A stretch of DNA of 42,674 nucleotides, taken from positions 1-42,674 of the forward strand of contig PMYK01000032.1 in assembly GCA_003171255.1 (NCBI GenBank), given 5' to 3'. Positions 14,027-37,248 of this stretch are shown one piece after another. Source of the DNA: Chloroflexota bacterium. Its GTDB lineage: Bacteria; Chloroflexota; Limnocylindria; Limnocylindrales; CSP1-4. The position numbers and the translations under genes are program-made. Within the stretch, counting starts at the first letter, position 1, and each line of letters begins with the position of its first letter. A model generated the notes under the pieces. It was not told where the DNA came from and did not search any database. It saw nothing but the letters and a program-made list of their open reading frames with translations.

Positions 14027-14704
14027 CTACTTGCTTGTGATCGTCACGTCCGATGCGGTGCCCGCGCCTGCCGTGCCGGGGCTGGCGCTCGCCGAAGCCG
14101 AGCCGGAGTTTGGCACCACGCCGGTGCCGGATGTCTGAACTACGACCGTGGCTCCGGTGGTCACGTCGGAGCTGGTCGCCGACGTCTGGCTGTGATAGGC
14201 GGTCGAGGAGCCGGTGGCTACCGTGACCGTTCGACCGTTGGCCTCCTGGATCGTCATCGAAGTCGATGTGACGCTCACGACGGTTCCGGTGACCGTGGCA
14301 GCGCTCAAGCGGACGCCGTCGTCGGGCCCGCCGCGTACGAAGTTGAGGGCGCCACTGGCGTTGGCCCCAAGCGCGGGGACGCCGTTCTGGCCGATCGCAC
14401 CGTTGTTGGTCAGGCCGGTGCCACTCTGGCCGCTCGAGGTCGCACGGCCGACCGCGAAGGTGACGCCGCCCAGGGCGACCATCGCTGAGATCACGAGCAG
14501 CACCGAAACCGAGCCGGCGCGCCGCGCTCGATCCGGCCGCTGGGCCGGCAAGTCGCTAGGTGGCGCGGCGTCGGTTGCCGGTTCACCTGGGGCCGCATCG
14601 TCCATGGCGTTGAGTGGCTCCGCAGGCAGCATCTCAGGCTGCCACACCGGGACCTCCTCGCTGGCTGGTTGAAGGACTATTCCACGCTCCATCGGCGTCG
14701 TCAT
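14027..14704 (-). CDS. Ser/Thr-rich membrane-anchored exported protein (DUF5666-like)
   Basis: A 225-residue protein with a 63-residue acidic Pro-rich cytoplasmic N-terminus, one membrane helix (64-86) and an outside domain. Residues 136-192 (VTGTVVSVTSTSMTIQ, VTVATGSSTAYH, TGATVVVQ) resemble the small beta-barrel repeats of DUF5666 proteins. The exterior is very rich in Ser, Thr, Gly and Ala and ends in a (SA)n stretch. Function is unknown. The ATG at 14704 has GGAG 9 nt upstream. It lies downstream of the kinase gene and has its own copy of the 13-bp motif 118 nt before the start. Being Ser/Thr-rich and possibly co-regulated with a GT39 protein O-mannosyltransferase relative, it is a conceivable glycosylation target (inference). 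Confidence 0.72.
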   Translation of the reverse strand: MTTPMERGIVLQPASEEVPVWQPEMLPAEPLNAMDDAAPGEPATDAAPPSDLPAQRPDRARRAGSVSVLLVISAMVALGGVTFAVGRATSSGQSGTGLTNNGAIGQNGVPALGANASGALNFVRGGPDDGVRLSAATVTGTVVSVTSTSMTIQEANGRTVTVATGSSTAYHSQTSATSSDVTTGATVVVQTSGTGVVPNSGSASASASPGTAGAGTASDVTITSK

Positions 14705-14822
14705 CGCAGTGTCTCCAGAGTGTTCGTCAGTTGGTCGGAGGCCTTGGGCCATCCGTACCGGAGCCGTCGCCGACCCAAATCGTGAAGCCGGCGTTCATGC
14801 CCAGTGTCGTTCGGCGATGCTG

Positions 14823-14835
14823 TCGAACTGGTTAC
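14823..14835 (-). promoter_or_regulatory. shared 13-bp motif, copy A
   Basis: On the minus strand this reads GTAACCAGTTCGA. It lies between the histidine kinase stop and the Ser/Thr-rich protein start, 118 nt upstream of that start. Copies with at most one change occur at 17046-17058 and 19590-19602. Confidence 0.6.
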
Positions 14836-14908
14836 AACCGCGGGCGGCGGTAGCCGCGCGGTGCGAGGGACGCGGGCAGCGGGCCGCGGGCTACTGGCTA
14901 CTGGCCCG

Positions 14909-16234
14909 CTACTGACCGGGGTGCGAGTCCCGATGGCCGCTGATCGAGCGCGGCCAGCTGACGCTGATGCTCGCCCCGCCCGCGGCGGAGGTGCCGATCT
15001 GCCACCGGCCGCCGGTGGCGCGCACGATCGCGTCGGCTATGGCGAGGCCCAGGCCGGCACCGCCAGGTTGATCGGTGGCACGGTGGAATCTGTCGAAGAT
15101 GCGCCCCCGCTCGGCCTCGGGGATGCCCGGGCCCGAGTCGTCGACCGTGAGACGGACACGCCGCCCCTCGCCGGCCACGCCCACCGTGATGGAACCGCCC
15201 TGCGGTGAGTACCGGCAGGCATTGTCGAGGAGAATGCCGACCAGCCGATCGAGCCAGTCCGGCGCAGCGGTGACGATCTCGTCGGCATTCAGGGAACCGG
15301 CAAGCACCTCGAGGTGCTGCCCGCGCGTCTCGGCAACCGAACCGAATCGATCGGCCGTCTGGGCCGCCAGAACGCGCAGGTCGACCGGCTCAGCCTGAGG
15401 CTGCCCGCCGGTCGAATCGAACCGGGCGAGCCAGAGCATGTCGTCCACGAGTCGGCGCGATCGCTTCAACTCGACGTCGATCCGCCCGAACGCGGCGGCA
15501 TCCCAGGCTGCTTCTCGGCCGCGAGCGAGAGCAAGCGTCGCGGTCGCTTCGATGACCGACAGAGGCGTCCGCAGCTCATGCGAGGCATCGGCCGTGAACT
15601 CGAGCTGGCGCAGTCGGGCGCGCTCGATCGGCAGAGCTACCCGGCGGCCAACGACCACCGACCCCAGGAAGACGAAGACGAGCAGGATGCAGCCGATCCC
15701 GAACTCCGCGACGATGAGGGTCGAGGTGGTCTGCGAAACGCTATCGAGCGACTGGCCGACGACCATTCGCACGGAGCCGACCGCTCGGCCGGCCATCCGG
15801 TAGTTCACGCCATCGATGGCGACGGTGGTCGGCACCGTGACGGTTCGGTCGGCGACGGGAAGCTGGAGGTCGTTCAGGCCCTGGCCGGCGGCCGTCCCGT
15901 CGGCCTTCACGATCCACAGCAGAACGGGGAGCCCGCGCGGGTCCTGGTGGCTCGGATCGAAGCCCGGGCCGCCGAGGGCGCCGGAGTCGGGCAATCCACC
16001 CGGCCCGCCGGTGTTGGCAACGACGTCCAGGGACTGGACCAGGTGCCGGTCGACGTCGGAGGTCAGGTTGCCCGAAACGACGACGGCAACTGAGACGGCG
16101 ATGACCAGATACGCCACGCCGACGACGGCGCCGGCGGCCAGGGCCACTCGGATTGCGAGCATCTCGACGGAGGGACCGGCGTGGCCATCGACGGGCGCGC
16201 GACCGGCGCCGCGCCGCCAACCGAACGTCTTCAC
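14909..16234 (-). CDS. sensor histidine kinase
   Basis: A 441-residue two-component kinase. Two membrane helices (27-54 and 172-195) enclose an extracytoplasmic sensor of about 115 residues with a Gly/Pro-rich first part. The H-box is FTADASHELRTPLS with the phospho-accepting H219. The ATP-binding part has an N-box (LLDNACRYSP), G1 box (VDDSGPGIP), F-box (IFDRFHRA) and G2 box (GAGLGLAI). Only about 15 residues separate the second helix from the H-box region, so a full HAMP domain is missing. Its GTG start (16234) overlaps the response regulator stop in GTGA, so the pair is co-translated. The signal is unknown; context suggests envelope state. Confidence 0.92.
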   Translation of the reverse strand: MKTFGWRRGAGRAPVDGHAGPSVEMLAIRVALAAGAVVGVAYLVIAVSVAVVVSGNLTSDVDRHLVQSLDVVANTGGPGGLPDSGALGGPGFDPSHQDPRGLPVLLWIVKADGTAAGQGLNDLQLPVADRTVTVPTTVAIDGVNYRMAGRAVGSVRMVVGQSLDSVSQTTSTLIVAEFGIGCILLVFVFLGSVVVGRRVALPIERARLRQLEFTADASHELRTPLSVIEATATLALARGREAAWDAAAFGRIDVELKRSRRLVDDMLWLARFDSTGGQPQAEPVDLRVLAAQTADRFGSVAETRGQHLEVLAGSLNADEIVTAAPDWLDRLVGILLDNACRYSPQGGSITVGVAGEGRRVRLTVDDSGPGIPEAERGRIFDRFHRATDQPGGAGLGLAIADAIVRATGGRWQIGTSAAGGASISVSWPRSISGHRDSHPGQ

Positions 16235-16899
16235 GCTTCCTCCAGCCGGTAGCCCGCGCCTCGAACCGTGACGATCCGAACACCGGCGCTGGGCAGCTTG
16301 GCTCGAAGCCGGCTGAGTTGGACATCGATCGCGTTCGAGCCGAGCGGATCTGTCTCATCGTCCCAGCCGTGTTCGGCGATGGCCTTGCGATCGACGACCG
16401 CGGGCGAGCGGCGCATCAACAGCTCGAGGATCTTGTATTCGGTGGCGGTGAGCGGCAGCGGTCGATCGCGCATGGTTACCTCTCGCCGGACTGGATCGAG
16501 CGACAGTGAACCACGCGAGACGACGGGCGCGTCGACGCCGCGCGGTCGGCGCTGGAGGGCGCGGATTCGGGCGAGCAGCTCCCCGAAGTCGAAGGGCTTG
16601 ACGAGGTAGTCGTCCGCCCCAGCGTCCAGGCCGCGGATCCGGTCCGGCGGAGCGTCTCGGGCGGTCAGCATCAGGATCGCCGTCGGCTTGCCCTGCTTTC
16701 GTGCCCAGGCCACGACGTCGATCCCTTCGACGCCGGGCATGCGCCAGTCGATCACAGCCACGTCGTAGTCGTAGAACTTGAACAGGTCGATGGCGTCGTC
16801 GCCGCGCTCGGCGGCGTCCACTTGATAGCCATAGTCCCTGAGCCCCATCACCAGGACCTGGCGCAGACCGGGATCGTCTTCGGCTACGAGCACGCGCAT
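16231..16899 (-). CDS. OmpR-family response regulator
   Basis: A 222-residue regulator: receiver domain (1-115) with acidic pocket D8/D9, phosphorylation site D51 (VIDWRMPG), switch threonine in LMLTAR and lysine in LVKPFDF; then a winged-helix DNA-binding domain (about 128-220) with LTATEYKILELLMRR and VRGAGYRLE. It is the partner of the overlapping kinase. The ATG at 16899 is preceded 6 nt upstream by TAGGAT (minus strand, 16911 to 16906), which could be a -10 for a leaderless message or double as a ribosome site. The 13-bp motif (17046-17058) lies 146 nt upstream, a candidate autoregulatory site. Confidence 0.93.
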   Translation of the reverse strand: MRVLVAEDDPGLRQVLVMGLRDYGYQVDAAERGDDAIDLFKFYDYDVAVIDWRMPGVEGIDVVAWARKQGKPTAILMLTARDAPPDRIRGLDAGADDYLVKPFDFGELLARIRALQRRPRGVDAPVVSRGSLSLDPVRREVTMRDRPLPLTATEYKILELLMRRSPAVVDRKAIAEHGWDDETDPLGSNAIDVQLSRLRAKLPSAGVRIVTVRGAGYRLEEA

Positions 16900-17045
16900 T
16901 TCGTCATCCTAGCGCGGCCGGCGGGCGGCCTCGGACCGGCGCCACCGCGGCCCGGCGAGAGGGGGAGCCGAGCGGGGTGGCACCGGGGAGGATTTCGGGA
17001 GGAGCCGGGGGATGTGCACGGCTGAAGATTGGGGCAGTCGGCCTT

Positions 17046-17058
17046 TCGATCTGGTTAC
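17046..17058 (-). promoter_or_regulatory. shared 13-bp motif, copy B
   Basis: The minus strand reads GTAACCAGATCGA, followed by AAGGC as in copy C. It sits 9 nt beyond the GT39 stop and upstream of the response regulator. Confidence 0.6.
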
Positions 17059-17067
17059 ATGGAGCGG

Positions 17068-19071
17068 CTAGGCCGCGCCGGCGCAGTCGTACAGGCCGGA
17101 GGACCCGCTTACGTTGGCGACCTTGCAGGTGCTCGTCACCCAGGAACTGACACCGGTGTCGCTGCTGCCGCCGCCGAAGCCGCCGCCTCCTCCGCCGCCG
17201 CCGATCAGGACGAACCGGAGCTTGCCCGAGGCGATATAACCCTTGAACTGGTCGAGCGTGGGCGTGGGGTCGGAGCCCGTGAAGCCCCCCATGGCCATGA
17301 CCGGCAGACCCGTGGTCAGCTCGAGCGTGCCCGCCTCCTGGGCTGAGTTCATGGCCACGATCCAGGTGGCGGTGCCGCGGTTGGCGACGAGATAGTCGTC
17401 GAGGGCGGAGGTCGAGGTGCCGCCGACATTGCCGCCTCCACCGATGACGCCATTTCCGACGTTCGGGACGACGCCCGGGATGTTGGGGAAGACCAGCACG
17501 CGACCGTCACCGAAGGCGGCCTGACCGCCGAGACCACCCTGCCCGCCGCCGAAGCCGCTCGTGCTGCCGGGGCCCGGGTGCGGATCGCCGCCGCCGTAGG
17601 CAATGCCGGTCGTGTCGAGCGAGTAGGCCGCCGGCGCGAGGAGAGTCGCGCAGATGCCAAGGCCGGCCGCCGCGACGGCGATTCGCTTGACCGCCACCCT
17701 GTCGGCGATGGCCGGCAGCGACGCTGCGACGAGCGCCAGCAGGGCCACGCCCGCCATGACGATTGCGACAGTACCGAGTCCGGGGTCGAAGTTGGGCGTG
17801 CGATCGAGCAGCGTCGAACCGAACCAGGCCGAGCCGAGGCAGACGGCTCCAACGGCGATGCCGCCGATCCAGATCCGCAATCGGGTTCCCCAGAGATCGA
17901 CCAGCCCGGCGCCGACGAGAGCGCCGACGGCCGGCGCCAGGGCAACCGCGTAGTAGGAGTGGATGATCCCGGACATGTAGCTGAAGACGATTGCCGTCAC
18001 CAGGAACCAGCTGCCCCAAAGCAGATAGCCGGCGAAGGCCAGGTCGGTTCGGTGAGCCCAGCGGCGCCGGAACAGACCTACGACAAGGCACACGATTGCG
18101 AGCGGGATGAGCCAGGCGATCTGGCCGAAGAGCTGGTCGTTGAAGAGTCGCAGCGGACCGACGTCGCCGCTGAAGCCGCCGCCACCCGCGCCGCCCGGGC
18201 CGGGCCCGCCGGTGCCGAAGATACGGCCGAGGCCGTCGTAGCCGAAGATCAGGTCGAGAGGCGAGCCGGTCGTGCTGCCGCCGATGAATGGCTTGCTGCC
18301 GGCGGGCAGCATCTGGACGATCGCAACCCACCAGCCGCTGGTCACGAGAACCGTGGCAAACGCCACGAGGAGTCCGACGAGCCGCCGGCGCAGGGTGGTG
18401 TTGGCCGAGAAGCCGAATACCAGCGCATAGCCCGGAAGCACGAGGTAGGCCTGCAGGTACTTGGTCAGGAAGGCGAGGCCAACGCACGTGGCCGCGAGTG
18501 CCATCCAACGGTAGCTGCCGTTCTCGAGCGAGCGGAGGAGGGCCCATGCCGAGATGACGAAGAGCAGGGTCAGCAGGGCATCGGGGTTGTTGAAGCGGAA
18601 GATCAGGGCCGCCGCCGGAGTGAGGGCCGTCACGATCGCCGCGATCGTTGCCGCAGCCGGCCCGAACGAGCGCCTGACCGCAAGGAACAGGACGCCGACC
18701 GTGGCCACGCCGGTCAGGGCCTCGGGCAGGAGAACGCTCCACGAGCTCAGCCCGAAGATTCGGACCGACAGACCCATGAGCATTGTGGAGAGCGGCGGCT
18801 TGTCGACGGTGATGAAGTTGGACGCGTCGAAGCTGCCGAAGAACCAGGCCGACCAGCTCTGGGACGCCGACAGCGCCGCCGCGGAGTAGTAGGTGTTGGC
18901 GTAGCCGCTGACGGTGAGGTTCCAGATGTAGAGAACGGCCGCGAGGGCCAGCACGCCAACGAACGCCGGACGTACCCACATGGCCTCATCAGCGTTGCCG
19001 CGGGCGAGGCTGCGGAGCGCGCTCAAGGGCCGAAGCCTCGGCATGAAGGCAGGTCTGGTGACGGCGGTCAT
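17068..19071 (-). CDS. GT39/ArnT-like membrane glycosyltransferase (YkcB type)
   Basis: A 667-residue integral membrane GT-C glycosyltransferase of the PMT/ArnT superfamily, closest in look to the YkcB group, which uses a polyprenyl-phosphate sugar on the outer side of the membrane. The first extracytoplasmic loop has the family stretch YYSAAALSASQSW and the acidic motif TVDKPPLS (D90). FNNPDALL is a second conserved loop motif. About twelve to fourteen hydrophobic helices follow. Glycine-rich tracts near 280-300, 490-560 and 620-640 interrupt the outside parts. A soluble C-terminal domain (about 480-667) ends in a Cys pair. The ATG at 19071 overlaps the gtrA stop in ATGA. A YkcC-like polyprenyl-phosphate sugar synthase is not in the window. 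Confidence 0.87.
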   Translation of the reverse strand: MTAVTRPAFMPRLRPLSALRSLARGNADEAMWVRPAFVGVLALAAVLYIWNLTVSGYANTYYSAAALSASQSWSAWFFGSFDASNFITVDKPPLSTMLMGLSVRIFGLSSWSVLLPEALTGVATVGVLFLAVRRSFGPAAATIAAIVTALTPAAALIFRFNNPDALLTLLFVISAWALLRSLENGSYRWMALAATCVGLAFLTKYLQAYLVLPGYALVFGFSANTTLRRRLVGLLVAFATVLVTSGWWVAIVQMLPAGSKPFIGGSTTGSPLDLIFGYDGLGRIFGTGGPGPGGAGGGGFSGDVGPLRLFNDQLFGQIAWLIPLAIVCLVVGLFRRRWAHRTDLAFAGYLLWGSWFLVTAIVFSYMSGIIHSYYAVALAPAVGALVGAGLVDLWGTRLRIWIGGIAVGAVCLGSAWFGSTLLDRTPNFDPGLGTVAIVMAGVALLALVAASLPAIADRVAVKRIAVAAAGLGICATLLAPAAYSLDTTGIAYGGGDPHPGPGSTSGFGGGQGGLGGQAAFGDGRVLVFPNIPGVVPNVGNGVIGGGGNVGGTSTSALDDYLVANRGTATWIVAMNSAQEAGTLELTTGLPVMAMGGFTGSDPTPTLDQFKGYIASGKLRFVLIGGGGGGGGFGGGSSDTGVSSWVTSTCKVANVSGSSGLYDCAGAA

Positions 19072-19562
19072 CCTCGTGTCCTTTTCGACTGGGAGAGCGT
19101 AGCGAGTCCTGGTTCGGTCGACACTCGGCCATCTCGAGACCGGTCTATGGCGACCCGGAGGAGCAGGAAGCGAACGAGTGTGGCGGCGGCGTTGGCCGCC
19201 ACCAGGACGGCGACCTCTGCCATGCGGCCGTGTTGGGGCTCGGCCTGCTGCAGGATCGCCAGCGATGCTGAAGTGATGGCCAGCGCCGCGCCGAAGGCGA
19301 TGAGCCCCGCGGCGTGGTCGCGCGCAAGACCATCGCGGCCCCGCACCTCGAATGTGAGGCGCCGGTTAGCCGCGGTGTTGGCCACGGCCGTGACCACCAA
19401 CGCCAGGGCGTTCGCGACACCGGCCGGGGAGACGCTCCGGAGCCCGGCATACAGGGCGACGTAGGCCGCCGTGCTAACCACGCCGATTGCGACGAAGCTC
19501 GCGATCTGTCGGACGCCGTCACGATGGGAGGCCAGAGGGTTGCGCAGAGTCTGAGCCGTCAT
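19068..19562 (-). CDS. gtrA: GtrA-family membrane protein
   Basis: A 164-residue GtrA-family protein with four membrane helices, roughly 22-42, 48-66, 84-104 and 116-136. GtrA-like proteins are thought to move polyprenyl-phosphate-linked sugars across the membrane, supplying enzymes such as the GT39 protein encoded directly after it (ATGA overlap at 19068-19071). Family cues are ASFVAIGVVSTAAYVALYAGLR and VANTAANRRLTFEVRGR. The 20-residue C-terminus is hydrophilic. Copy C of the 13-bp motif begins 27 nt before the ATG, so control at this promoter would set both genes. marR is divergent, 81 nt away. Confidence 0.88.
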   Translation of the reverse strand: MTAQTLRNPLASHRDGVRQIASFVAIGVVSTAAYVALYAGLRSVSPAGVANALALVVTAVANTAANRRLTFEVRGRDGLARDHAAGLIAFGAALAITSASLAILQQAEPQHGRMAEVAVLVAANAAATLVRFLLLRVAIDRSRDGRVSTEPGLATLSQSKRTRG

Positions 19563-19589
19563 GACCCGGAATCTGGGCCGGACTGCCTT

Positions 19590-19602
19590 TCGAACTGGTT
19601 AC
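19590..19602 (-). promoter_or_regulatory. shared 13-bp motif, copy C
   Basis: The minus strand reads GTAACCAGTTCGA, followed by AAGGC. It is 27 nt before gtrA and 41 nt before the divergent marR start. The 18 bases 19585-19602 differ from 17041-17058 at one position only. Confidence 0.62.
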
Positions 19603-19630
19603 GCCCGTACGTGGAATTGCGGAACCCTGA

Positions 19631-19636
19631 TATACT
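19631..19636 (+). promoter_or_regulatory. -10 box TATACT for leaderless marR
   Basis: TATACT lies 7 nt before the marR ATG (19644), and no Shine-Dalgarno is present, so transcription should start at or next to the A of the ATG. No clear -35 is seen at the usual distance. Confidence 0.55.
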
Positions 19637-19643
19637 CAATGCC

Positions 19644-20189
19644 ATGCGGAATATCACTGTCACGCAGAGTAACGGCTCCGAGCCCCCAACGGCTGCGTCC
19701 GACCGCCAGTCCCTCGAGCGGGAGCTGCTCGACGAGATGACGGCCTGGTCGCCTCGCGACCGCGGCGGAATGTTCAAGACGTGGCATCGCCACGCCCTCA
19801 GTCTGGTTCATCTCAACGTCCTGACCGCGCTGGAGGCCGAGGGGCCGCTCTCCATGCGCCGCCTGGCGGAGGCGATGGACGTCTCCGACGCAAGTGCCAC
19901 GGGCATCGTCGACAGGATGGAGAAGCGTGGCCTGGTCGAACGCCGCCACGGAACCGGAGACCGCCGCATGGTGCTGGTCCACGCCACGGGCGCCGGCGAG
20001 CAGGTCTTCCGCGACATGGCCGCCCACCACCGCGACGTGCTTTCGAGGGTCCTGGCCGAACTCACCGAGGAGGAAGTGACCGCGCTCCTGGTGGGTATGA
20101 GGGCCATCCACGCCGCCAAGCGCAGGGCGCTCGAGTGGGACCCGGATCAAGGATTGCCGCCAGGCCCGGAAACCGTGGCCACCGGCTGA
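19644..20189 (+). CDS. MarR-family regulator of the ABC exporter operon
   Basis: A 181-residue MarR regulator, probably a repressor of the two ABC exporter genes behind it. The helix-turn-helix spans about residues 70-100 (MRRLAEAMDVSDASATGIVDRM) and is followed by the wing HGTGDRRMVLVHAT. An N-terminal extension of 25 residues is polar. ATG 19644 is chosen because the reading frame further upstream runs antisense through gtrA and because TATACT sits 7 nt before it. The ABC unit begins 55 nt later (leader ORF). Autoregulation is likely; no strong palindrome stands out between 19603 and 19643. Confidence 0.88.
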   Translation: MRNITVTQSNGSEPPTAASDRQSLERELLDEMTAWSPRDRGGMFKTWHRHALSLVHLNVLTALEAEGPLSMRRLAEAMDVSDASATGIVDRMEKRGLVERRHGTGDRRMVLVHATGAGEQVFRDMAAHHRDVLSRVLAELTEEEVTALLVGMRAIHAAKRRALEWDPDQGLPPGPETVATG

Positions 20190-20244
20190 GGCCGACTACC
20201 ACTTCTCCCGCCACGCTACCAACCACGCAGAAGGATCCGCACCA

Positions 20245-20271
20245 ATGACCACTTCGGACTCACGCCCATGA
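20245..20271 (+). CDS. possible 8-residue leader peptide before the ABC genes
   Basis: ATG 20245 opens MTTSDSRP and stops at TGA 20269-20271, whose TG overlaps the ATG (20268) of the first ABC gene. AAGGA (20231-20235) lies 9 nt before this short ORF, whereas the ABC gene has no ribosome site of its own in the 20 nt before its ATG. Translation of the exporter may therefore depend on ribosomes ending here. Such a short ORF can also be chance. Confidence 0.45.
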   Translation: MTTSDSRP

Positions 20272-21998
20272 CGAAGCTGCTGCCCAGGTACCTCTGGCCA
20301 TACCGCCTGCCACTCATCCTGGTGCTGGTCCTGGTCGCGGTCCAAGCCCTGGCCAACCTGTACCTGCCCAACCTCAACGCCGACATCATCAACAACGGCG
20401 TGGTCAAGGGCGACACCGACTACATCGTCCGGACCGGCGGCTTCATGCTGCTGATCACCTTCGGGCTGGGCATCTGCTCGGTGATCGCCGTCTACTTCGG
20501 CTCGAAGGTGGCGATGTCGTTCGGCCGAGACGTGCGCAGCGCGATCTTCCGCAAGGTCATGGACTTCTCTCAGAAGGAGACCAACCTCTTCGGGACGCCG
20601 ACGCTGATCACCCGCAACACCAACGACGTCCAGCAGGTCCAGATGGTCCTGGTCATGGCGTTCAACATCATGATCATGGCCCCGATCATGTGTGTCGGCG
20701 GCATCATCATGGCGATGCGTGAGGACGTTCCGCTCTCCGGACTGCTCCTGATCATCATTCCGCTCATCGTTGGGATGATCGCAATCGTGGCAACGAAGGC
20801 CCTGCCGATGTTCCGATCTGTCCAGAAGAAGACGGACCGCATCAACCAGGTCATGCGTGAAGCCCTGAGCGGCATCCGCGTCATCCGGGCATTCGTTCGG
20901 ACCGAGCACGAAGAGCGCCGCTTCGACGAAGCCAACGCCGACCTGACCCGGACCCAGCTCCGCGTCAACCGCCTCTTCGCGATCATGCTGCCGTTCCTGT
21001 TCGGCACGATGAACCTCTCGACTGTCGCGATCGTCTGGTTCGGCGGCCTGCGGATCGACTCGGGCGGAATGCAAATCGGAAACCTGTCGGCCTTCCTCCA
21101 GTACGTGATGCTGGTCCTCTTCTCGGTGATGATGGCGGCCCTGATCTTCATCATGGTCCCGCGCGCCGCCGCTGCGGCCGAGCGCATCCAGGCCGTTCTC
21201 GAGACCGAGCCCGACCTGTGCGATCCGGATGAGCCCGTCGAGATCGCCGAACCCAAGGGCGTCGTCCAGTTCGACAACGTGGAGTTCCGCTATCCCGGCG
21301 CCGAGGATGCCGTGCTGTGCGGCATCTCGTTCACGGCAAAGCCCGGCGAGACGACCGCCATCGTCGGCGGCACCGGTTCGGGCAAGACGACCCTCGCCAA
21401 CCTGATGCCGCGCTTCTACGACGTCACTTCCGGCAGCGTGAGCATCGATGGGGTTGACGTCCGAAAGCTCCGCCTGGAGAACCTGTGGAGCATGATCGGC
21501 ATCGTGCCGCAGAAGGCGTTCCTCTTCAGCGGCACCGTCGCCAGCAACCTGCGCTACGGCAACGAAGCCGCCGACAACGACGACCTGTGGCGCGCCCTGA
21601 CGACCGCCCAGGGCAAGGATTTCGTGACCGCGATGGATGGCGGGCTCGATGGCGAAATCGACCAGGGCGGCACCAACGTCTCCGGCGGCCAGCGCCAGCG
21701 CCTGGCAATCGCCCGAGCGATCGTGAAGAAGCCGAAGGTCTACATCTTCGACGACAGCTTCTCCGCCCTCGACTTCAAGACAGACCAGATGCTCCGGGCC
21801 GCCCTCCACAAGGAAACGCGCGAAGCGACGGTGATCATCATCGCCCAGCGCGTTGGGACGATCATGCACGCCGACCAGATCGTGGTCCTCGACAGCGGCT
21901 CGATAGTCGGCATCGGGACGCACGGTGAATTGATGAAGACCTGCGAGACGTATCAAGAGATCGTGTACTCGCAGCTGACCCAGGAGGAAGTCGCATGA
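20268..21998 (+). CDS. ABC exporter half-transporter with degenerate ATPase site
   Basis: A 576-residue fused permease-ATPase of the multidrug/lipid exporter class. Six membrane helices fill residues 1-310; the ATPase occupies 330-570. Walker A is GGTGSGKTT (K373), the signature VSGGQ (471-475) is normal, but Walker B reads IFDDS with D496 where the catalytic glutamate should be, and the switch histidine is Q527 (IIAQRVG). These are the usual changes of the non-hydrolysing partner in heterodimeric exporters such as BmrC/BmrD or TM287/288. Its TGA overlaps the ATG of the second half-transporter. No ribosome site lies directly before ATG 20268; see the leader ORF. Confidence 0.93.
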   Translation: MTKLLPRYLWPYRLPLILVLVLVAVQALANLYLPNLNADIINNGVVKGDTDYIVRTGGFMLLITFGLGICSVIAVYFGSKVAMSFGRDVRSAIFRKVMDFSQKETNLFGTPTLITRNTNDVQQVQMVLVMAFNIMIMAPIMCVGGIIMAMREDVPLSGLLLIIIPLIVGMIAIVATKALPMFRSVQKKTDRINQVMREALSGIRVIRAFVRTEHEERRFDEANADLTRTQLRVNRLFAIMLPFLFGTMNLSTVAIVWFGGLRIDSGGMQIGNLSAFLQYVMLVLFSVMMAALIFIMVPRAAAAAERIQAVLETEPDLCDPDEPVEIAEPKGVVQFDNVEFRYPGAEDAVLCGISFTAKPGETTAIVGGTGSGKTTLANLMPRFYDVTSGSVSIDGVDVRKLRLENLWSMIGIVPQKAFLFSGTVASNLRYGNEAADNDDLWRALTTAQGKDFVTAMDGGLDGEIDQGGTNVSGGQRQRLAIARAIVKKPKVYIFDDSFSALDFKTDQMLRAALHKETREATVIIIAQRVGTIMHADQIVVLDSGSIVGIGTHGELMKTCETYQEIVYSQLTQEEVA

Positions 21999-24079
21999 GC
22001 GGCCCCACCAACGGCGCCGACAACCAAACGGCCGGCGGCATGGGCGGGCGCCCGACAGGCGGCCCCGCTGGAAGACCCGCCGGCGCAACCGGCGGCGCTG
22101 CATCGGGCGGCCTCGGCAGCCCGGGTGGTCCCCGGCGCGGTCCGATGGGCGGCGGCATGGGGCCGATGGGCCACATGGCGATGCCTGCGGAGAAGCCCAA
22201 GAACTTCCGTGCCACGTTCAGACGCCTCCTCGGTGAGCTGCGACCGGAGCGAAAGTGGGTCGGCCTCGTGGGCGTCGTTGCCCTCTTCAGCACGGCCGGC
22301 CAGGTCTTCGGCCCGAAGATCCTGGGCAACGGCATCAACCAGCTGATGGACGGCCTGGTCGGCAAGATGCTCGGGCAGTACTTCCCAAAGGGCACGACCC
22401 ACGATCAGGCAGTGGCGGCGCTGCAGGCGCAGCACAGTCCGCTGGCGGACCTTGTCTCGGCCACGAGCGCGCGGCCGGGTGTCGGCGTCGACTTCGGGGC
22501 GCTGGGCATAGTCCTCCTCGGCCTCGTCGGGCTCTACCTGATGGCCACCTTCTTCAGCTGGGTGTCGTGGTACGTGATGGCCGGGGTCTCGCAGCGAACC
22601 GTCTACCGGCTTCGCCGCGACGTCGACCTCAAGCTCGCCAGGCTTCCGCTGAAGTACTTCGACACTCATCAGCGAGGCGACACCCTCAGCCGCGTCACCA
22701 ACGACATCGACAACATCGGCAACACGCTCCAGCAGTCGCTGACTCAGATCATCACGTCGCTGGCCGTGGTCGTAGGCATCCTGGCGATGATGTTCTGGAT
22801 CAGCCCGCTCCTGGCCGTGATCTCGCTGCTGGTCATCCCGGCGGCCGCGGTCACGACGATGCTCATCGCCAAACGGTCTCAGAGCCAATTCGCGGCCCAG
22901 TGGGCGCGGACCGGCACGCTCAACGGCCACGTCGAGGAGTCGCACACCGGCCACGCGATCGTCAAGGCCTTCGGCCACCAGGAAGACGCGATCCGCCGCT
23001 TCGACGAAGAGAACCAGCTTGTCTATGACGCGAGCTTCAAGGCCCAGTTCATCTCGGGAATCATCATGCCGACGATGAACTTCATCAGCAACCTCAACTA
23101 CGTCGCCATCGCGGTGATCGGCGGCGTCCAGGTGGCGACAGGGCGGATGTCGCTCGGCGACGTCCAGGCGTTCATCCAGTATTCGCGTTCGTTCACCCAG
23201 CCGATCACGCAGACGGCGAGCATCGCCAACCTGCTGCAGTCGACCATGGCGTCGGCAGAGCGCGTGTTCGAGCTCCTCGACGAAGCGGAAGAAGTCCCCG
23301 AAGCGGCCGTCCCGGTCGAGCTCGAGCACGTCACCGGCCATGTCAGCCTCGAAGGGGTTTCGTTCCGCTACGTGGCCGACAAGCCGCTCATCGAAGATCT
23401 CAACGTCGACGTCCGATCCGGCGAGGTCCTGGCGATCGTCGGCCCCACCGGCGCCGGCAAGACGACCCTCGTCAACCTGCTGATGCGGTTCTACGAGCTG
23501 GACGCCGGCAAGATCTCCATCGACGGCGTGGACACGCGGATGCTCACCCGCGACAAGCTACGCTCCACCTTCGGAATGGTCCTCCAGGACACGTGGCTCT
23601 TCGGCGGCACGGTCCGCGAGAACATCGCCTACGGCCGCGAGAACGCGACCGAGGACGAGATCATCGCCGCGGCCAAGGCAGCTCACGTGGACCACTTCGT
23701 TCGCACGATGCCCCACGGCTACGACACGGTCATCGACGACGACGCTTCGAACCTGTCCCAGGGCGAGAAGCAGTTGCTGACGATCGCGCGGGCCTTCCTG
23801 GCCGACCCGGAGATCCTGATCCTCGACGAGGCCACCAGCTCCGTTGACACACGAACTGAGGTTCTCGTTCAGCAGGCGATGGCGCGTCTGATGAAGGGTC
23901 GCACGGCCTTCGTCATCGCCCACCGCCTGTCCACGATCCGCAATGCGGACGAGATCCTGGTCATGGATCAGGGCAAGATCGTCGAGCAGGGCAGCCACGA
24001 CGAGCTGATGGCTCGGAAGGGCTTCTACTACGACCTCTACAACTCGCAATTCGAGGAGGCCATCGCGGAAGCGGGGTAG
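21995..24079 (+). CDS. ABC exporter half-transporter with canonical catalytic residues
   Basis: A 694-residue half-transporter that should pair with the preceding one. It starts with an unusual 65-residue Gly/Pro/Met-rich, probably disordered segment; membrane helices follow, with a loop of about 60 residues after the first. Walker A GPTGAGKTT (K489), Walker B ILDEATS (D611, E612) and switch H643 are canonical, but the signature is LSQGE (587-591) where LSGGQ is usual. The signature of this chain completes the ATP site of the other chain, which is already degenerate, so one site is fully consensus (this Walker A/B with the VSGGQ of the partner) and one fully degenerate. A terminator follows at 24106-24128. 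Confidence 0.93.
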   Translation: MSGPTNGADNQTAGGMGGRPTGGPAGRPAGATGGAASGGLGSPGGPRRGPMGGGMGPMGHMAMPAEKPKNFRATFRRLLGELRPERKWVGLVGVVALFSTAGQVFGPKILGNGINQLMDGLVGKMLGQYFPKGTTHDQAVAALQAQHSPLADLVSATSARPGVGVDFGALGIVLLGLVGLYLMATFFSWVSWYVMAGVSQRTVYRLRRDVDLKLARLPLKYFDTHQRGDTLSRVTNDIDNIGNTLQQSLTQIITSLAVVVGILAMMFWISPLLAVISLLVIPAAAVTTMLIAKRSQSQFAAQWARTGTLNGHVEESHTGHAIVKAFGHQEDAIRRFDEENQLVYDASFKAQFISGIIMPTMNFISNLNYVAIAVIGGVQVATGRMSLGDVQAFIQYSRSFTQPITQTASIANLLQSTMASAERVFELLDEAEEVPEAAVPVELEHVTGHVSLEGVSFRYVADKPLIEDLNVDVRSGEVLAIVGPTGAGKTTLVNLLMRFYELDAGKISIDGVDTRMLTRDKLRSTFGMVLQDTWLFGGTVRENIAYGRENATEDEIIAAAKAAHVDHFVRTMPHGYDTVIDDDASNLSQGEKQLLTIARAFLADPEILILDEATSSVDTRTEVLVQQAMARLMKGRTAFVIAHRLSTIRNADEILVMDQGKIVEQGSHDELMARKGFYYDLYNSQFEEAIAEAG

Positions 24080-36999: not shown

Positions 37000-37248
37000 G
37001 GGGTTTTGCCCCGCGCCTTGAGCCACGTGGTCCGGCCCGGTTGCGGCTGGTTACGTAGGGCGGTTTAGCGATCCGACTGGGGAGATCGTGGGAAACGAGA
37101 TAGATTTCGTCGGATTTGCCGACGACTGCCGCGTCGAGGGGAAGGTAGAGCTGGATGATCGCAGCCGCGGCCACCCGAATCGGACCGTCGGGGCCCGAAC
37201 CTGGCATCATTGGCGGCACAGGGGCTCACAGGAGATACCGCTCTGTCG

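Follow-up and report, generated by a model that had tools for sequence, protein, structure and literature searches.

We analysed a 42,674-nucleotide stretch of a Chloroflexota genome (contig PMYK01000032.1, GTDB lineage CSP1-4), referred to here as the window, and found that three copies of a short DNA motif, the box, each stand upstream of one minus-strand unit of a single gene cluster. These units encode a GtrA protein with a GT39/PMT_2 family glycosyltransferase (PMT), an OmpR/PhoB-family response regulator with a histidine kinase, and a Ser/Thr-rich membrane-anchored exported protein (STex). It is very probable that together they form a real and conserved local regulon under the control of its own two-component pair. 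Because the box is conserved in relatives, it is most likely that the sensor pair activates both its own genes and the neighbouring units.

Box positions and conservation

The three copies of GTAACCAG(T/A)TCGA which an earlier, sequence-only reading had noticed (A, 14835-14823; B, 17058-17046; C, 19602-19590; all on the minus strand) are present, and the window holds no other site even when ≤ 2 mismatches are allowed. Copies B and C are alike over 18 bases with one change, GTAACCAG[A/T]TCGAAAGGC, and the partial GTAACCAG reported at 37047-37054 is also real and lies on the minus strand. A scan of the whole genome (55 contigs, 2,556,102 bases) showed that the box is not scattered: the exact 13-mer was found only 3 times, all in the cluster, compared to approximately 0.04 occurrences expected per genome from the base composition of the window. 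Allowing one mismatch added 7 sites scattered over the genome (reversed control: 0). It should be noted that shuffles of the window alone, with ≤ 2 mismatches allowed, reached 3 matches in 5 of 100 cases, so the evidential force lies in the exactness, clustering and conservation of the boxes.

The box is also kept upstream of the same genes in relatives. Within the window's genus it was found upstream of gtrA in all 13 genomes with a gtrA match (the distance to the extrapolated start being exactly 40 bp in 7 of these), upstream of the STex gene in all 16 genomes having that gene, and within 400 bp upstream of the regulator gene in 11/16 genomes. Fourteen of the STex boxes came from an upstream scan; those of G013 and G014, like the gtrA box of G003, were read from locus comparison, with starts extrapolated through a divergent N-terminus. 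We also counted as boxes two core-only matches, at gtrA in G007 and at the regulator gene in G004, as well as G010's AACGA variant. The regulator of G015, which has no upstream sequence, and a remnant in G002 were left out of the 16 regulator genomes.

Linkage of box and regulator across the family and class

We searched a sample of 101 genomes of the family with a strict pattern, GTAAYCNNWTCGAMAG, and called the regulator present at E ≤ 1e−65; a looser, degenerate pattern, GTAAYNNNNYCGAMAG (expected approximately 0.86 times per 2.6 Mb), was run on 16 regulator-only and 16 regulator-less genomes of the sample. The strict pattern gave 53 sites in 30/101 genomes, compared to 1 site in the reversed control. 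The majority of these sites were close to module genes: 31 were ≤ 6 kb from the regulator gene and 41 were ≤ 6 kb from the regulator or PMT/gtrA genes. The 12 sites outside the module comprised 4 at adaptor genes, 1 at a ferric-reductase/ApbE operon (G068:C8) and 7 others (G030, G101, two in G068, G023, G065 and G115). In the window's own genome (G000), a one-mismatch box, GTAACCAGACCGAAAG (G000:C30:9124-9139, minus strand), precedes a PadR-like gene and was considered as a fourth regulon site; no site with ≤ 2 mismatches was found near the orthologue in 4/4 other genomes of the genus, and it was therefore not counted. A PadR-like gene in G101 carries a strict box.

The regulator was found in 42/101 family genomes, with 74-97% identity in the 41 besides the window's (partial matches included). 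Both box and regulator were present in 26 genomes, the regulator only in 16, the box only in 4 and neither in 55 (one-sided Fisher's test: P = 1.9e−9); outside the window's genus the corresponding numbers were 13, 16, 4 and 52 (P = 8.5e−5), and both values overstate independence because the genomes are related by phylogeny. Within the genus, 13/13 regulator genomes carried the box, vs 0/3 others. We read G002 as a natural deletion or loss case in which the regulator and the strict box are gone together. A deletion scar (L136 3637-3759) has reduced its regulator to a 41-residue remnant beside a boxless PMT gene. The MarR and ABC pair genes are kept as well as the PMT gene; no match was found for gtrA, the kinase or STex, and the strict box was found nowhere in the genome.

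Among the 16 regulator-only genomes, 15 carried the degenerate box (21 sites; reversed control: 3), and in 13/16 it was found ≤ 6 kb from the regulator gene, a zone which makes up approximately 0.4% of the genome. A comparison set of 16 regulator-less genomes, hand-picked from the non-matching ones and including G065, whose strict box was already known, carried the degenerate box in 2/16 (5 sites; control: 2). Across the class, strict sites were found in 35/177 genomes, only 1 of which (G133) was among the 70 outside the family. The regulator was found in 50/177 genomes, including 4/70 outside the family, belonging to two other families. In two of these four, G160 and G161, the stretch upstream of the regulator operon is off the contig; in the two informative genomes a degenerate box precedes the operon (2/2). 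In G162 an ATG lies 40 bp from the start of this box, and in G060 a GTG and an ATG lie at 38 and 41 bp. The scan of which these loci formed part covered 13 loci in all: 7 had a degenerate box, 2 a loose match only (L257 and L258) and 4 no box (L254, L255, L259 and L261). Loci from Mycobacterium/Mycolicibacterium which combine PMT and GtrA with a kinase-regulator pair (L055 and L056) were left out; their regulators are only 38-39% identical, and the pattern of the locus comparison found no box in them. In L056, a 13-mer with one mismatch lies approximately 1 kb from the regulator, on the other strand.

Promoter layout

The full box is GTAA(C/T)-N6-GA(A/C)AG, that is, two half-sites in an 11-bp register; the half-sites are approximately 11 bp apart at 92 unique degenerate sites in the fetched loci, a spacing by which the pattern itself selected the sites. 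The flanking bases 5' of the box appear unconserved. All three boxes in the window are followed by a NANNNT hexamer at box positions 28-33, starting 11 bp after the box. ATG codons peak at box positions 40 and 41 (32 and 17 sites; 49/92), and of the 55 sites with an ATG at 38-42, 40 have A at −11 and 38 have T at −7; no other positions within the −12 to −7 hexamer are as informative.

In high-GC bacteria, leaderless genes are described as marked by TA-like signals approximately 12 bp before the start codon (PMC3160421). Because the pattern of ATG and −10 element at the box sites looks like that of leaderless genes, gtrA is probably leaderless, with its transcript predicted to start at its ATG (19562). 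With a start there, the box would span −40 to −25 and would replace the −35 element, as in PmrA and PhoB, for which the −35 element is placed at half-site 1 (PMC4660055). We infer that this is the layout of a class-II activator with a leaderless gtrA. By eye, GGAG and AGGA, which resemble Shine-Dalgarno sequences, precede the starts of the STex and regulator genes, respectively.

A mechanism can be proposed on this basis. The membrane kinase (14909-16234) would sense an extracytoplasmic signal and phosphorylate the OmpR-family regulator (16231-16899), a dimer of which would bind the box head to tail, one subunit per half-site, at approximately −40 to −25. The bound regulator would take the place of a −35 element beside a weak NANNNT −10 element (class II activation) and turn on the STex gene, its own operon and gtrA-PMT, whose mRNA probably begins at the A of the gtrA ATG. 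Between them, GtrA and the GT-C enzyme would take a lipid-linked sugar through the membrane and attach it to an acceptor in the envelope.

Candidate readers of the box

The OmpR-type regulator encoded in the cluster is the best candidate for the protein which reads the box. Its best solved relative is 7lz9 (E = 2.5e−40) and its second BasR/PmrA 8jo2 (E = 4e−36), with RegX3, PhoP and MtrA also among them; it was above no curated cut-off among the best 25 of 93 NCBIfam matches. Among 34 sequences, its recognition helix (SNAIDVQLSRLRAKL in the window) shows few changes.

As well as the relatedness of the genomes, several observations weigh against control by this regulator. In the same 34 sequences, box variants and changes in the recognition helix show no clean co-variation, the half-site repeat is imperfect and box B of L041 has no NANNNT where it is expected. 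The box was found without a detected regulator in G023, G065, G090 and G111, and in the last three (91%, 81% and 61% complete) it still precedes gtrA-PMT; either the assemblies miss the gene, therefore, or another protein reads the box. Conversely, in G030 the 18 kb fetched around the regulator gene contain no box, and the sole strict box of this genome precedes an HtrA-like protease; the regulator operon of G095 has only a loose box match. Outside the family, G133 has a strict box and no regulator, and the four regulator genomes (G060, G160, G161 and G162) have no strict box. Finally, box B is absent in 5/16 genomes of the genus (G008, G012, G013, G016 and G018). Since the boxless regulator gene in these five follows PMT in the same orientation, it is presumably transcribed by read-through from the gtrA promoter.

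It is very improbable that another OmpR-type regulator elsewhere in the genome (GlnR-, MtrA- or PmrA-like) reads the box, or that the pair represses instead of activating. The geometry of the box is common to the OmpR family, and G065, G090 and G111 would fit such a reader; however, a global regulator should have sites elsewhere and no exact one was found in G000, and a box at −40 to −25 suits activation through sigma contact.

We also think it very unlikely that the box and the −10 element together form the promoter of an alternative sigma factor of the extracytoplasmic function (ECF) type, with GTAAC as the −35 element and the two-component pair a mere client. The −35 elements of ECF sigma factors with an AAC core resemble GTAAC, which counts in favour of such a promoter, as does the −10-like element which trails the box at near-constant spacing. 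However, the conserved block of approximately 16 bp includes a second fixed part, CGAMAG, and exceeds a −35 element; with a start at the ATG, GTAAC would lie at −40 to −36, a few bp too far upstream; and the −10 element looks NANNNT-like. The response regulator, moreover, tracks the box across genomes, and no sigma gene was noticed among the module genes, though no search was aimed at sigma genes.

That the divergent MarR-family regulator (19626-20189, plus strand) binds the box as an operator for the ABC exporter pair and the cluster is extremely unlikely: box C is 24 bp from its assumed start codon (19626) and the MarR-ABC1-ABC2 genes adjoin the cluster in many genus loci, but the box is not palindromic, L047 and L052 keep boxes A and C without a detected MarR, a MarR match was found in only one (L210) of 20 loci from other genera (L196-L215), and G002 retains the MarR gene and ABC pair without a strict box.

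Comparison with known systems

We compared the system to those already described. The GlnR box of actinomycetes is given as gTnAc-n6-GaAAc (PMC10704036), of which the 16-bp box shares 8/9 specified letters and the 6-bp spacer; the last base is G here and C in the GlnR box. A single local cluster is found here, compared to a nitrogen regulon for GlnR, and the regulator has a partner kinase and, by inspection, a canonical acceptor Asp.

PmrA controls itself together with a lipid-carrier sugar-transfer set (GT2-flippase-GT-C). The PmrAB-arn system of enterobacteria shares with the present one an OmpR-type regulator and head-to-tail half-sites 11 bp apart, the PmrA half-sites being described as 5 bp apart and bound head to tail (PMC3973317). 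However, the PmrA box (CTTAA-N5-CTTAA-like) is not matched by GTAAC/GAAAG, the flippase here is GtrA-type and the promoter looks leaderless. The regulator scored 163 bits against the PmrA equivalog of NCBIfam, below its cut-off of 330.

A GtrA flippase and a GT-C transferase stand in one unit, as is characteristic of three-component transmembrane glycosylation systems, and are common to CsbB-GtcA-YfhO and YkcBC of Bacillus subtilis. Unlike these, the window's gtrA-PMT unit has no GT2; three distant GT2s were found elsewhere in G000, the best candidates being 27-37% identical. YkcBC is given as of unknown function in a 2021 review (PMC8035078). Judged by the titles listed, searches of the literature on GtrA and two-component systems, Chloroflexota regulons and YkcB/GtrA turned up no publication on this system.

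Genes of the cluster

Pfam matches agreed with the three units as they had been described: GtrA with PMT_2/YkcB_C, Response_reg/Trans_reg_C with HisKA/HATPase, and a membrane-anchored exported protein (Table 1). The response regulator has both a receiver domain, with D51, T79 and K101 by inspection, and a winged-helix Trans_reg_C domain, as do OmpR/PhoB-family members. The extracytoplasmic sensor region of the kinase (residues 105-162) has five predicted strands in a low-confidence model (mean pLDDT 60). Divergent from gtrA, and beside the cluster in many genus loci, are a MarR-family regulator gene and two ABC exporter genes (19626-24079, plus strand).

Table 1 Boxes, predicted −10 hexamers and genes of the cluster (window positions), and small proteins with [ST]GGS ends in other loci (locus positions). 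The −10 hexamers are predictions from the sequence.
Feature	Position	Strand	Remarks
Box C with one flanking base, GTAACCAGTTCGAAAGG	19586..19602	-	Upstream of gtrA-PMT
Box B with one flanking base, GTAACCAGATCGAAAGG	17042..17058	-	Upstream of response regulator gene
Box A with one flanking base, GTAACCAGTTCGACAGC	14819..14835	-	Upstream of exported protein gene (STex)
Predicted −10 hexamer of box C, CAGATT	19570..19575	-	11 bp past GAAAG; gtrA ATG 7 bp further
Predicted −10 hexamer of box B, CAATCT	17026..17031	-	Box positions 28-33
Predicted −10 hexamer of box A, GACACT	14803..14808	-	Box positions 28-33
gtrA, GtrA/DPMS transmembrane protein, putative lipid-linked sugar flippase	19068..19562	-	PF04138, E 1.2e-10
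GT39/PMT_2 family GT-C glycosyltransferase with YkcB_C	17068..19071	-	PF13231, E 7.8e-28; PF24878, E 1.5e-27
OmpR/PhoB-family response regulator, proposed box reader	16231..16899	-	PF00072 and PF00486 above cut-off
Membrane histidine kinase (H219)	14909..16234	-	PF00512, PF02518; alignment
STex, Ser/Thr-rich membrane-anchored exported protein, one small predicted beta-barrel	14027..14704 (ATG)	-	
[ST]GGS protein	L199 8912-9190		
[ST]GGS protein	L200 9413-9799		
[ST]GGS protein	L201 1362-1640		
[ST]GGS protein	L203 1241-1531		
[ST]GGS protein	L203 5259-5690		
[ST]GGS protein	L205 98-445		
[ST]GGS protein	L207 4919-5314		
[ST]GGS protein	L121 3012-3302		
[ST]GGS protein	L132 5972-6340		
[ST]GGS protein	L253 3975		Found by pattern
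[ST]GGS protein	L257 473		Found by pattern
[ST]GGS protein	L260 91		Found by pattern

STex and small Ser/Thr-rich proteins

The part of STex outside the membrane is 33% Ser+Thr; for 235 whole proteins called in the fetched loci, the median is 11% and the 95th percentile 21%. An alignment of 12 sequences, one of them truncated, shows a cytoplasmic N-terminus, one membrane segment, stretches rich in Ser, Thr, Gly and Ala, and a small beta-barrel, which is also seen in the structural model (mean pLDDT 56); the Ser/Thr-rich stretches around the barrel are of low confidence. STex of the window had no Pfam match at E ≤ 0.001. Weak matches to barrel families were found among the 12 sequences, to ProQ_C in 9/12 (best E 1.7e−5) and to DUF5666 in 3/12 (best E 1.6e−4), the latter below the DUF5666 cut-off and not including the window protein itself. 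Comparison of the fold to the Protein Data Bank (PDB) gave weak matches only (best E 0.037), and STex was therefore given no function from its fold. The genes adjoining STex in many genus loci encode an RDD-family membrane protein (PF06271) and a SHOCT protein (PF09851; 12567-13896 in the window).

The Ser/Thr-rich small proteins found at such promoters in sister genera differ from STex. They have a single membrane segment and end in [ST]GGS plus 0-2 residues. This end was found in 9 of 14 position-listed small proteins (the other 5 look different) and, among 99 called proteins of < 200 amino acids, in those 9 only; 3 more were found by pattern. The genes of 9 of these 12 proteins immediately precede apbE, and those of 6 come straight after a box; two small sister-genus proteins which we tested had no Pfam domain. 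As published ApbE sites are given as [S/T]GA[S/T]-like, the [ST]GGS tail may be a C-terminal flavin attachment site, possibly new and minimal. The suggestion that STex is the target of the glycosyltransferase goes beyond the evidence; its Ser/Thr stretches are modelled with low confidence, and the small proteins of the sister genera are mostly paired with a flavin transferase.

Genes behind the box in relatives

In other genera, the genes which follow the box in L208, L209, L210 and L215 begin like a GT2 enzyme; by Pfam, that of L209 is a GT2-GtrA fusion and that of L208 a GT2, and PMT follows in L209 and L210. Because box-led GT2 genes accompany GtrA/PMT in sister genera, GtrA-PMT is supported as a putative lipid-linked sugar-transfer system.

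The regulator operon of several sister genera holds ApbE, a ferric-reductase-like membrane protein and a NuoF-like protein, with a ferredoxin as well in L207; the set was confirmed in L207 by Pfam and in L253 and L255 by tblastn. One of the two other families (f4) has ApbE, ferric reductase and NuoF in this operon, and in the other (f5) only ApbE was found. In the window, this set was not seen near the cluster genes, and G000 gave no ApbE match at E ≤ 1e−10 in a search run without a positive control. MsrQ-like flavinylated electron-transfer clusters with NuoF, 31 of which are described in PMC8238504, are matched by the sister-genus and f4 operons, but not by the window. The box precedes ferric-reductase-like and small-protein/ApbE genes in L120 (3983), L121 (2068 and 3380, two boxes inside one apparent operon) and L200 (8478).

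Four genomes of the window's genus have a box-bearing paralogue of an HlyD/MacA-like efflux adaptor (L124 2555, L125 2189, L126 2056 and L127 1723). Relatives of this adaptor were found in 20/21 genus genomes, and the degenerate box at 4/29 fetched loci, one per genome; neither the common paralogue nor the copy in G000 has a box. The adaptor was therefore rejected as a core member of the regulon and is an accessory member at most. In L135, two divergent boxes 60 bp apart (2012, minus strand; 2072, plus strand) lie between the regulator gene and a gene which by eye resembles an HlyD/MacA-type adaptor. Other box-led genes in relatives encode YceI, an HtrA-like protease and, in one operon, a DM13 protein.

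The sequence-only interpretation as a regulon thus stands insofar as the box is localised, conserved and tracks the regulator gene. Its description as self-contained fits the window's genome and overreaches for relatives, in which boxes are found before additional genes of the envelope and of redox functions. We tentatively suggest, as a rather doubtful extension, that the box and two-component pair might couple lipid-linked sugar transfer and ApbE-dependent flavinylation across several families, with Ser/Thr-rich membrane-anchored proteins as shared or alternating substrates; the flavin branch would seemingly have been lost in the window's genome, and the glycosylation branch kept together with a different Ser/Thr-rich protein.

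Significance for uncultivated Chloroflexi

The control of the cell envelope is hard to study in uncultivated Chloroflexi, and the sequence here yields a candidate regulator, its box, a promoter layout and putative targets. The box also serves as a search key: in relatives it points to an extracytoplasmic electron-transfer operon as well as to additional genes of the envelope, which encode an efflux adaptor and YceI, DM13 and HtrA-like proteins. For YkcB-type glycosyltransferases of unknown function, these genes would provide a first guess at the partners with which they are co-regulated.

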